This document shows positions 1 through 3,687 of a stretch of DNA of 50,015 nucleotides, piece by piece. Both the position numbers and the translations under genes were made by a program. The notes under the pieces were generated by a model that was not told the origin of the DNA, ran no database searches, and was given only the letters and a program-made list of their open reading frames with translations. This DNA is from Azovibrio restrictus (GTDB lineage: Bacteria > Bacteroidota > Bacteroidia > Chitinophagales > Chitinophagaceae), in assembly GCA_029255605.1 (NCBI GenBank), contig JANLJF010000063.1:1-50015 (forward strand). The letters run 5' to 3'. Position 1 is the first letter of the stretch. Every line of letters begins with the position of its first letter.

Positions 1-992
1 TTACTCATCTCCAGCATTCTGTCTATAGGCTTTTTGGCTGCAAGACGAACATCTTCAGGCATCAATATTTCCGGCAGCTCATATTTAATACATAAATACA
101 ATTTTTCAAGTGTATTTAGTTTCATATGAGGACAGTCGTTGCATGCGCATGCATTATCGGGTGGAGCTGCAATAAAAACTTTATCGGGCGATTTCTGCAT
201 CATCTGATGCAGGATACCCGTTTCCGTAGCTACTATAAAACCCTTCGAATCGTCCTCCTGCGTATATTTCAGCAATTGAGTAGTAGAACCTATAAAATCT
301 GCAATCCTTAATACAGGCTCTTCACACTCCGGATGTGCTATCAGTTTTGCTTCAGGATGCCTTTCTTTCAGCCTGGTGATTTTTTCAAGAGAGAATATTT
401 CATGCACCATACATGCACCGTTCCACAACACCATATTGCGCCCTGTTGTCTTATTGATATAAGCACCCAGATTCTTATCAGGAGCAAATATTATCTTCTG
501 CTCTTTAGGCAAACTATCTACGATGGCCTTAGCATTGGATGATGTACATATTATATCACTCAAAGCTTTTATACCCGCAGAACAGTTGATATAGGATATA
601 ACTATATGGTCAAGATGCTTTTCCTTGAATAGTTTGAATAATGCAGGGGGGCAGCTATCGCTTAAAGAACAACCCGCATTCAGGTCTGGCAACAACACCT
701 TCTTACCGGGATTCAGGATCTTTGCTGTTTCAGCCATAAAATGCACACCGGCAAAGACAATCATATCAGCATCTGTCTTTTCAGCCATTTGTGCCAAGCC
801 CAGGCTATCGCCAATATAATCTGCAATATCCTGTATATCGGGCTCCTGGTAATAATGCGCGAGTATTATGGCATTCTTCTCTTTCTTCAGCCTTTCTATC
901 TCAGCAAAAATATCCATCGACGGATCGACCTCAATATCCAGGAAACCTCTTTCAATCAATTTTTCTTTGGCAACATCTAAATTCACATCCAT
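1..992 (-). CDS. nadA: Quinolinate synthase NadA (C-terminal end cut by window edge)
   Basis: Condenses iminoaspartate with dihydroxyacetone phosphate to make quinolinate, the precursor of NAD; cytoplasmic [4Fe-4S] enzyme. Read on the minus strand from ATG at 992-990, the frame stays open for 330 codons to the window edge. The three conserved cluster cysteines are visible in their usual contexts: AGCSLSD (Cys about residue 108), WNGACMVHE, and the C-terminal [10 protein letters not shown] motif. The last residues ([10 protein letters not shown]) match the usual NadA C-terminus, so only a few codons are missing. The TTA at positions 1-3 is not the stop: it is out of frame. No clear TAnnTTTG promoter is seen; the upstream region is the candidate replication origin. 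Identification is secure. Confidence 0.97.
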
Positions 993-1042
993 AGTAGTAG
1001 TAAAATATTTTTTTTAAAAAAAGGATTATTATCAATTAGGAG

Positions 1043-1370
1043 TGTGGATATGGGGAAACAAAATTGTTATTCCTATTGCAAATTAACCGTTTTTATTTAG
1101 TTAACTGCTTATTAGTTCATTATCAACACTTACAAACCGCTACAATAAGGGATACCCACATAAAATGAGCATTTGTGGATTACAGAGGTGCTTTATAAAT
1201 AACCGATGGGAATATCGTAGAACGATGTTGAAAATCGAATTGATTTCAGGAACAAAAAATATCATTTCACTTATCCACAATCATAAAAAGGGATAAACTG
1301 ACATTTTTAAATCTGCTTTTCACAACTATCCACAAAGCTGGTCTAATAACATTAATTTATTAATAGGTCA
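1043..1370. other. Candidate chromosomal replication origin (oriC): DnaA-box cluster plus AT-rich segment
   Basis: The 523-bp gap between divergent nadA and the PpiD-like gene holds no plausible gene but several DnaA-box-like 9-mers (consensus TTATCCACA). I see one perfect box at 1271-1279 (+) and four with a single mismatch: 1043-1051 (minus strand, ATATCCACA), 1120-1128 (TTATCAACA), 1174-1182 (minus strand, TAATCCACA) and 1326-1334 (CTATCCACA), plus a weaker one at 1152-1160 (ATACCCACA). Immediately downstream, about 1348-1368, lies a run almost entirely of A and T (ATTAATTTATTAATA) that could serve as the unwinding element. Many Bacteroidota have an origin away from dnaA, so the absence of dnaA here is not decisive against it. 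This is inference from motif density; no skew calculation was done. Confidence 0.65.
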
Positions 1371-1479
1371 GTTTTACTTTTCAGTTAAATAAACTTAAAT
1401 GCAATAAGTAAAATTGTAATATCACGCATTATAGCTGCATTAAATTCGTATCAACACTACATAATCTCATTTTTTCGTA

Positions 1480-1487
1480 TAAATTTG
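1480..1487 (+). promoter_or_regulatory. Bacteroidota -7 element (TAAATTTG)
   Basis: Exact match to TAnnTTTG ending 28 bases before the ATG at 1516. No good -33 TTTG is evident at the usual distance, so strength is uncertain. Confidence 0.5.
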
Positions 1488-1515
1488 CCGTCCTTGTAAT
1501 AAACAGTTTTTAAAC

Positions 1516-3687
1516 ATGTCTGTAATTCAGAAAATAAGAACCAGGTACGCAAAGCTTGCCGGGTTTGTAATTGCACTATCACTGGTAGGCTTCATTTTAA
1601 TGGATGCATCTAACGGTCCGTTGGGTAGTTTGTTTGGTAGAGATAATGCTGTAGCAAAAGTTAATGGTGATAAAATAGACGTTAAGGACTATTCATTGAA
1701 AGTGAAAGACTATGAAGTAATATATGGATATACTTCAAAAGGCCGCGCACTGGATGATGCAACGCGTGCTCAAATTAACCAGCAGGCGCTTAACGACCTG
1801 ATTAATAATAAACTGATAGCAGAAGAATGTGAAAAACTGGGTATCACCACTACACCAGATGAAGAAAAAGAAATGATTTATGGTGCAAATGCTGATCCTA
1901 TTATTCAACAATACCAGATACAAGGCCAGCCTATCTTCCTGAATCAGCAGTCTGGCATGTTCGATCCGCAGATGGTGAAAGGTTTTGAACAACAGTTGCC
2001 GCAAATAGACCCTACTGGTAAACTGGCCGAAGAATGGGAAACAATAAAAAACTATGTGAAAAACAGCAATGCATTGAGAAAATATAATGCGTTGTTCACT
2101 AAAAATGTAACGCTGCCTTCTTTTGTTTACAACAGGGATCAGAAAGATAAATCTGAAATGGCCAATGCACGTTTTATAAAAGTGCCTTACGCTACTATTG
2201 ATGATAAATCAGTTGCGGTAAAAGATGACGAACTGATAGACTACATGAAAAAGCATGAGTCTATATATAAGATAACACAACCTATACGCAACCTGGAATA
2301 TGTAGCATTTGATGTGCTGCCTACTGCTGAAGATACGGCCCGCGCATTAGGTGCACTCAATCAACTTAAAACGGACTTCACAAATACAACAGATGCAGAG
2401 AGTATTGTTAACAGGAATTCTGATGAGCAATACAATCCGGCTTTTGTAAATAAAAAGTCTTTCATGTCTGCTTACGCAGATACTATTTTGAGACTACCTG
2501 TTGGTACAGTATATGGTCCGTATTTTGAGAACGGTAGTTACAAAATGGTAAAAGTTATAGATAAGAAAGTATTGCCCGATTCTGTAAAAAGCCGTCACAT
2601 ACTTGTACGTACAGAGGCTCAAGGCCAGGCGATATCTGCAGATTCTATAGCTAAGAAAAAAATAGACAGTGCCATAGCTATGGCAGCTACCGATTTTACG
2701 GGTGCCGTTACAAAATATAGCGAAGACGAGGGTAGTAAACAAACAGGTGGTGAATACACTTTTACGCTGCAACAAAAGCAAGGCTTGTCAAAAGAGTTTG
2801 GCGATTTTATATTTGATGGCAAAGCCGGCGAGAAAAAACTGGTGAAAGTTGAGAACGATAATTATGCAGGCTACCACTACATAGAAATATTGGAACAAAG
2901 CGGTATAGAAACTGCAGCAAAATTGGCAATAATAAGCAAAACACTGGCCCCCGGTGATAATACTGAAAATGCTGTGTATGCGAAAGCTTCAGAATTTGCT
3001 GGCAAAAATGCTACACAAAAAGCCTTCGACGAAGCCATCAAAAAACAAAACCTGAATAAAAGGATAGCTGATAACATTAAAGAAAATGATTTCAGCATAC
3101 AAGGTATAGGCAATAGCAGGGAAATCATCCGTTGGGCATATGAGTCTAAAATTGGAGATGTATCACCAGTATTTACGGTGAGCACTGCTGCAGGTACACG
3201 TTATGTGGTAGCAAAACTTGCCGGTGAACAGGAAAGCGGCCTGATGAAACTGGATGCCAACACACGTCCTTCCATTGAAATGATGGTAAGGAATGAGAAG
3301 AAAGCTAAAATGATACAGGATAAGTACAAGTCTGCAACATCATTAGAGCAAATAGCTGAGATGGCTAAACAACCGATTGTGCAGAGTGATTCTTTCAATG
3401 CATCTTCTCCGTTTATCAACACAATAGGGTACGAGCCTAAACTGGTAGGTTACATTTTCTATAAAGACTTTAAAACCAATACACTTTCTCCGGGTTTCAA
3501 AGGCCAGGAATCTGTGATCTATACGAACGTACTGCACAGGTTTACTATGCCATCAAAAGAAACACCTGAAATAGCTAATCAAATGCGTATGATGATGGGT
3601 ATGCAAATGCGTAACGCGGTAGCAGGGTCTTTTGCAGAAACGCTGAAAAGAAAAGCTAAAATATCTTACAATGTAGCCAATCTATAA
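1516..3687 (+). CDS. PpiD/SurA-like membrane-anchored peptidylprolyl isomerase
   Basis: Periplasmic folding helper for outer-membrane or secreted proteins. The 723-residue product has a short cytoplasmic N-terminus, one membrane segment at about residues 14-33 (ending in FILMDA), a SurA-N/PpiD-type helical chaperone region (about 45-200), and one parvulin-type rotamase domain at about 356-460 beginning SVKSRHILV, with the family's DEGSKQTGGEYTF signature. The C-terminal 250 residues are a second, degenerate parvulin-like or substrate-binding region. The size and architecture fit PpiD-like proteins of Bacteroidota rather than soluble SurA, which would have a cleaved signal peptide. It is monocistronic: a promoter match precedes it and a terminator hairpin follows at 3711. 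Start ATG 1516 puts the membrane segment at the expected place. Confidence 0.93.
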   Translation: MSVIQKIRTRYAKLAGFVIALSLVGFILMDASNGPLGSLFGRDNAVAKVNGDKIDVKDYSLKVKDYEVIYGYTSKGRALDDATRAQINQQALNDLINNKLIAEECEKLGITTTPDEEKEMIYGANADPIIQQYQIQGQPIFLNQQSGMFDPQMVKGFEQQLPQIDPTGKLAEEWETIKNYVKNSNALRKYNALFTKNVTLPSFVYNRDQKDKSEMANARFIKVPYATIDDKSVAVKDDELIDYMKKHESIYKITQPIRNLEYVAFDVLPTAEDTARALGALNQLKTDFTNTTDAESIVNRNSDEQYNPAFVNKKSFMSAYADTILRLPVGTVYGPYFENGSYKMVKVIDKKVLPDSVKSRHILVRTEAQGQAISADSIAKKKIDSAIAMAATDFTGAVTKYSEDEGSKQTGGEYTFTLQQKQGLSKEFGDFIFDGKAGEKKLVKVENDNYAGYHYIEILEQSGIETAAKLAIISKTLAPGDNTENAVYAKASEFAGKNATQKAFDEAIKKQNLNKRIADNIKENDFSIQGIGNSREIIRWAYESKIGDVSPVFTVSTAAGTRYVVAKLAGEQESGLMKLDANTRPSIEMMVRNEKKAKMIQDKYKSATSLEQIAEMAKQPIVQSDSFNASSPFINTIGYEPKLVGYIFYKDFKTNTLSPGFKGQESVIYTNVLHRFTMPSKETPEIANQMRMMMGMQMRNAVAGSFAETLKRKAKISYNVANL

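Follow-up and report, generated by a model that had tools for sequence, protein, structure and literature searches.

The non-coding gap between nadA and a ppiD-like gene at the left end of this contig holds a cluster of DnaA boxes, and the question that it raises is whether replication of the chromosome begins there, as the initial annotation had proposed. Our computational analysis indicates that the segment at about 1001-1334 is very probably the oriC at which this bacterium begins to replicate its chromosome, a reading that draws added support from parS sites nearby and from the way in which the cluster follows nadA in genomes where nadA and ppiD lie apart. Three outcomes had been named in advance as counting against an origin here (a GC-skew minimum elsewhere, equally dense clusters at many other gaps, or boxes that are not conserved in close relatives), and none of them clearly emerged. 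The features to be read from the sequence are a cluster of boxes that is conserved and that remains beside nadA, the parS motifs in its neighbourhood and a skew that appears broadly centred on the same place.

The DnaA-box cluster and the adjoining A/T run

The window, by which we mean the whole 50,015 bp stretch of DNA that was analysed, is an entire contig (C63) of an assembly of 163 contigs that amounts to 3.27 Mb and is 99% complete; the closest named relatives are Chitinophagaceae bacterium LGM1, Flavipsychrobacter and Taibaiella. The left flank of the gap is formed by nadA, which is truncated by the contig start but whose full-length copy in a near-identical relative (L171) matches NCBIfam nadA, and the right flank by a gene whose product combines a SurA-like N-terminal domain with a PPIC-type rotamase. 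As first described, the two genes diverge from the region (Table 1). A block situated directly 5' of ppiD is kept in nearly all of 15 aligned gaps, poorly so in that of locus L242, and is probably the ppiD promoter; at 1480-1487 it contains TAAATTTG, which we take to be the Bacteroidetes -7 motif TAnnTTTG.

Table 1. Features of the nadA-ppiD gap and its flanks (positions in the window)
Feature	Position	Strand	Basis
nadA (quinolinate synthase), truncated by contig start, left flank	3..992	-	Pfam NadA, E 9.7e-123
Pure A/T run, candidate DNA unwinding element	1001..1022		Read directly; A/T-rich block recurs in 15-gap alignment
DnaA-trio-like repeats TTG ATA ATA ATC CTT TTT TTA, upper-strand NTN	1015..1035	-	Home-made score
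DnaA box ATATCCACA, one mismatch	1043-1051	-	Motif scan
DnaA box TTATCAACA, one mismatch	1120-1128	+	Motif scan
DnaA box TAATCCACA, one mismatch	1174-1182	-	Motif scan
DnaA box TTATCCACA, perfect	1271-1279	+	Motif scan
DnaA box CTATCCACA, one mismatch	1326-1334	+	Motif scan
Conserved block, probably ppiD promoter, contains TAAATTTG	1465..1503	+	15-gap alignment
ppiD-like gene, right flank	1516..3687	+	ORF; Pfam SurA_N_2, E 3.4e-24; Rotamase_3, E 2.6e-14

Counting as a DnaA box any match to TTATCCACA on either strand with at most one mismatch, a motif scan of the window finds one perfect and four one-mismatch boxes within 292 bp of the gap (1043-1334), exactly where the initial annotation had seen five such boxes on both strands of some 300 non-coding bases. 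Its judgement that this density would be rare by chance is also correct, as the 523-bp gap, when shuffled by dinucleotides (or plainly, as a fallback), contains 0.21 boxes on average, and none of 3000 such shuffles reaches five. Box abundance, by comparison, is unremarkable: the whole window contains 19 boxes against a mean of 14.8 expected, which is no enrichment, and the genome-wide count gives 998 such sites where the reversed pattern has 984, which is background level. Since neither the window nor the genome is rich in boxes, the cluster itself is the signal, and it is only the clustering of the boxes that is special, not their number. Elsewhere in the same genome, 20 other stretches (387 kb) have a maximum of two boxes per 300 bp or so. 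The nadA-ppiD gap is in this respect what is looked for in a DnaA-dependent oriC, a non-coding cluster of boxes beyond chance.

An A/T-rich element beside the boxes is likewise expected of an oriC, and the run noted previously is indeed pure A/T, lies just to the left of the start first given to the region (1043), and belongs to a block that recurs in the 15 aligned gaps; the origin unit is thus better drawn as extending from about 1001 to 1334. Published searches for a basal unwinding system (BUS) look for a box, a spacer of up to 16 bp and then at least three DnaA-trios, according to the passages available of PMC8287927, a trio being 5'-CTA-3' on the strand complementary to 3'-GAT-5' in those of PMC8235120. 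Reading along the - strand of the window, one passes from box 1043 to CTCC, then through triplets with T in the middle and on into the A/T run; the trio-like repeats come after a 7-nt spacer. Box, spacer and at least three trios are present here as judged by a home-made score that was devised after the alignment had been seen and that allows spacers of 2-7 nt only. By this score the window gap reaches 10.5, a value attained by none of 40 shuffles of the same gap, and the mean over 40 gaps is 5.8 against 0.95 for shuffles; 18 of the 40 gaps score above every one of their 40 shuffles, and in seven there is no candidate. The cleanest form of the trios is that of L173, AAATCCACA-GTC-CTA ATT ATA ATA ATC, adjoining a TTATCCCCA box. 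From its sequence, a DnaA-trio/AT-rich unwinding element fits at 1001-1051, and melting beside nadA appears plausible.

Conservation of the cluster and its association with nadA

Divergent nadA and ppiD genes less than 1 kb apart are found in 13 of the 15 genus genomes, that of the window included, and in 14 of the 22 genera of the family that were sampled; the distance is 3-4 kb in three more genera, and the remaining five lack the arrangement. Outside the family, none of 23 genomes of the same order has the two genes as divergent neighbours. A locus of this group's type is present in L235, a record titled as a Phycisphaerales MAG, which is probably mislabelled or a mixed bin.

Among 80 named loci, nadA is located upstream of ppiD in 42 (within 1.1 kb in 40, and at 1.9 and 3.0 kb in the other two), and these gaps contain 153 boxes in 29,560 bp (5.2 per kb) compared with 166 in 534,002 bp (0.31 per kb) elsewhere in the same loci. 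At least three boxes are present in 32 of the 42 gaps, and one or two in the other ten. When 40 gaps were pooled, adding that of the window and leaving out L171, which is a near copy of it, as well as L186 and L213, whose gaps exceed 1,100 bp, 149 boxes were counted; shuffling gave 8.8 on average and never more than 14, and the reversed pattern gave 15. As a further control, 15 boxes occur in the 23.2 kb upstream of ppiD in 29 loci in which nadA was not found and at least 800 bp of upstream sequence is present; this set leaves out nine more such loci (of 38 in all) with a shorter upstream part, among them L178, whose contig is cut and which has five boxes in 547 bp. The gap of L242 is an unusually strong version of the origin, with 11 boxes, eight of them perfect, in 528 bp.

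Conservation extends in part to individual positions. In the 15-gap alignment box 1043 is matched with at most two mismatches in 12 gaps and with at most one in five, box 1120 has no more than one mismatch in 12 gaps, and box 1174 in 11; boxes 1271, the perfect one, and 1326 are kept by position in two gaps each. Other positions of the alignment average 0.19 rows, the largest value being 6. The boxes are therefore conserved in relatives as an origin would lead one to expect, in that the clusters are kept and three of the five boxes are kept by position as well. The nadA gap of the complete genus genome CP075895.1 (G004) has just two one-mismatch boxes, and the relatives that are exceptions to a cluster at the same locus are G015 and G025.

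Genomes in which nadA and ppiD have become separated are informative as to which gene the boxes accompany. In G032 the two genes are 107 kb apart, and 11 boxes, five of them perfect, occupy 300 bp upstream of nadA, beside mnmG and parS; the 20-kb stretch around ppiD contains no group of three boxes. Similarly, the upstream region of nadA contains three to six boxes in G033, G035, G017 and G019, in all of which the gene is apart from ppiD, and no boxes lie upstream of ppiD in G015, G019 and G025. The box cluster belongs to nadA. G015 and G025 (loci L021, L019, L049 and L059), which stand for two genera, have no cluster upstream of either gene, with none or one box upstream of nadA, and their origin may have moved or may use divergent boxes.

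The cluster is also uncommon when other regions are considered. In 100 stretches taken from G004, G018, G032, G028 and the G011 contig, at least four boxes per 300 bp occur in five, four of which are the nadA region and the fifth a cluster beside a pdxH-like gene; dense clusters at many gaps, one of the adverse outcomes mentioned above, were thus not clearly seen.

parS sites, GC skew and the position of dnaA

Nearness to parS is a further criterion for an oriC, and a search with the pattern TGTTNCACGTGNAACA, allowing up to one mismatch, identified parS-like sites at distances of 3-17 kb, measured from the gap or, for G032, from nadA, in eight of nine relatives, namely G004, G007, G011, G013, G018, G023, G028 and G032; in G035, the other relative tested, no convincing parS was found near the gap. 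Groups of five sites are present in G013 and G023. Two sites are located in and just upstream of mnmG in L171, about 3 kb from the gap, and those of G032 are just upstream of mnmG. G004 has one parS-like match only, at a distance of 6 kb, and the single one-mismatch match near the gap in G018 may be due to chance, the reversed control giving more matches there. The parS sites of the bacterium itself are on a different contig, C48, which aligns just beyond nadA in G011, and it is by this synteny only that we infer them to be near the window gap.

The GC skew points to the same region at coarser resolution. In G004, where 40 stretches covering about 0.8 of 3.32 Mb were sampled, the cumulative curve reaches its lowest point +28 kb from the gap but is flat from about -450 to +60 kb, and the skew has positive values out to about +1.2 Mb on the side of nadA and negative ones from about -1.6 Mb. 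G028 passes from -0.052 at 1.20 Mb through -0.007 in the gap stretch to +0.059 at 1.44 Mb, and G032 from -0.036 in the nadA stretch to +0.031 at 2.45 Mb, its ppiD stretch still being at -0.033; the sign change in both is at or within about 75 kb of nadA. The skew of G018 is too weak to place a minimum, that of the G011 contig (146 kb, about 95% DNA identity to the window) is weakly negative on both sides with no local switch, and that of the window is mostly weakly negative, again without a switch. As to the expectation of a cumulative minimum at this locus, the relatives give a mixed picture: G028 and G032 agree with it, G004 has its sampled minimum nearby but in a flat valley, G018 is ambiguous and G011 does not show it. 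The resolution of the skew in favour of the locus is tens to hundreds of kb, which does not single out the gap itself.

An origin away from dnaA and next to nadA was part of the original proposal, and the gene positions bear out the distance from dnaA: dnaA of this bacterium is on contig C67 and the window is C63, and dnaA is 0.41-1.94 Mb from the gap or nadA in five one-contig genomes (G004, G013, G018, G028 and G032). An origin at dnaA was considered and is rejected, given that nine of ten dnaA loci, including its own, hold at most one box per 300 bp. L063, the dnaA locus of G023, has four one-mismatch boxes within 300 bp, which are perhaps an autoregulated promoter.

From these elements we infer DnaA binding, melting at 1001-1051 and bidirectional initiation at the gap. 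DnaA made from the distant gene would bind the clustered boxes, and a filament of it would extend leftwards from the nadA-proximal box 1043, over the trio-like repeats and into the A/T run; the duplex would then melt, allowing the helicase to be loaded, and two forks would set out, one to each side. For segregation, the region would be marked as well, by sites for ParB that lie a few kb past nadA.

Alternative readings and comparison with known origins

The least improbable alternative is that DnaA regulates promoters in the gap, those of nadA, ppiD or both, or that the gap is a titrating site resembling datA or DARS, with the origin elsewhere. The gap does contain two divergent promoters, and boxes cluster also beside pdxH, upstream of an exopolysaccharide-type operon, so that a cluster is not always an origin. 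However, neither promoter control nor titration sits well with a cluster that stays upstream of nadA without ppiD, that is adjoined by trio-like and A/T-rich elements, and on which parS and skew centre in several relatives, and we regard this explanation as improbable.

The pdxH cluster is found on contig C125 (L277) of the bacterium's own assembly, where four boxes lie in 276 bp, about 137-412 after the stop of a pdxH-like gene (a name given from its sequence alone), and in G004, where four boxes lie in 155 bp (L087:13278-13432) between the pdxH-like gene and the exopolysaccharide-type operon, at 2.669 Mb. At least three boxes are present in the 600 bp following this gene in 11 of 13 genus genomes tested, and a head-to-head pair around a perfect box is conserved in several of them. 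This degree of conservation, together with the four boxes of G004 compared with two in its nadA gap, might suggest that the origin of the genus is here and not at nadA, but the cluster is absent from G003, G013 and G032, genomes that do have boxes in the nadA gap or 5' of nadA, and in G004 it is 0.80 Mb from the nadA gap at a point where the sampled skew has no sign change, the sole parS-like match being close to nadA instead. We therefore think it most improbable that the pdxH side is the genus origin, and as a family-wide origin it is rejected on its absence from three genomes and the constant sign of the G004 skew. The pdxH cluster is best read, from its sequence, as a DnaA-bound regulatory site, or as a conserved promoter that coincides with box-like repeats; a DnaA-titrating or DnaA-regulated site is possible.

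It is scarcely conceivable that the boxes of the nadA gap came together by chance within A/T-rich non-coding DNA (72% A+T in the near-identical relative), even with one-mismatch sites at background level genome-wide, and this is rejected on the shuffles of the window gap and of the 40 pooled gaps, the reversed-pattern control and the window and genome counts, and is contradicted by the conservation in relatives.

With the nadA gap as the probable origin, one might speculate, although we think it rather unlikely, that the genus has a two-site DnaA circuit, in which an origin at nadA, mnmG and parS has been kept through rearrangement and the pdxH site serves to titrate DnaA, to recharge it, or to tie exopolysaccharide expression to replication; the pdxH site may then have let the origin boxes weaken, as in CP075895.1. 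The boxes of the proposed second site are conserved and more strictly spaced than those of the origin, from which they are about 0.8 Mb away in G004.

An origin beside nadA would provide a zero point for chromosomes in a group that is largely uncultured and whose origin does not adjoin dnaA, and genome maps and coverage-based estimates of growth rate could be oriented by nadA, mnmG and parS instead of dnaA. The related origins, which vary in the strength of their boxes, form a set for testing which elements an origin needs, that of L242 being a good candidate for bench work, and the pdxH site is a second DnaA-box site that can be tested as a regulator. In literature searches, none of the matches listed dealt with an origin next to nadA in these bacteria; DoriC may already list the nadA locus for this family.

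Several known systems offer comparisons. The predicted oriC of Yersinia pestis KIM+ lies between gidA and mioC, like that of E. coli, as given in the passages available of PMC10225481. The locus described here resembles this mnmG/gidA-side oriC in its TTATCCACA-type boxes on both strands, its adjacent A/T-rich DNA, its distance from dnaA and the closeness of mnmG, which is about 3 kb beyond the gap in L171 and about 2 kb from the cluster in G032; it differs in that its immediate neighbours are nadA and the ppiD-like gene and in that several members of the genus have fewer and weaker boxes. The order of elements on the - strand, in which box 1043 and a short spacer precede the NTN repeats and the A/T run, is like that in the basal unwinding system of B. 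subtilis and others, as outlined in the available parts of PMC8287927 and PMC6669920, although the trio run of the window is shifted by one base, most of its trios are not CTA, and a sister group (e.g. L191 and L192) has its candidate on the other strand. The criteria by which Ori-Finder and DoriC catalogue origins, as given in the passages available of PMC10225481, are those used here, namely an intergenic position, a box cluster, a skew minimum and lineage-specific indicator genes. The probable oriC is of the ordinary bacterial kind, and both its distance from dnaA and its nearness to mnmG/gidA are familiar from E. coli and Yersinia.
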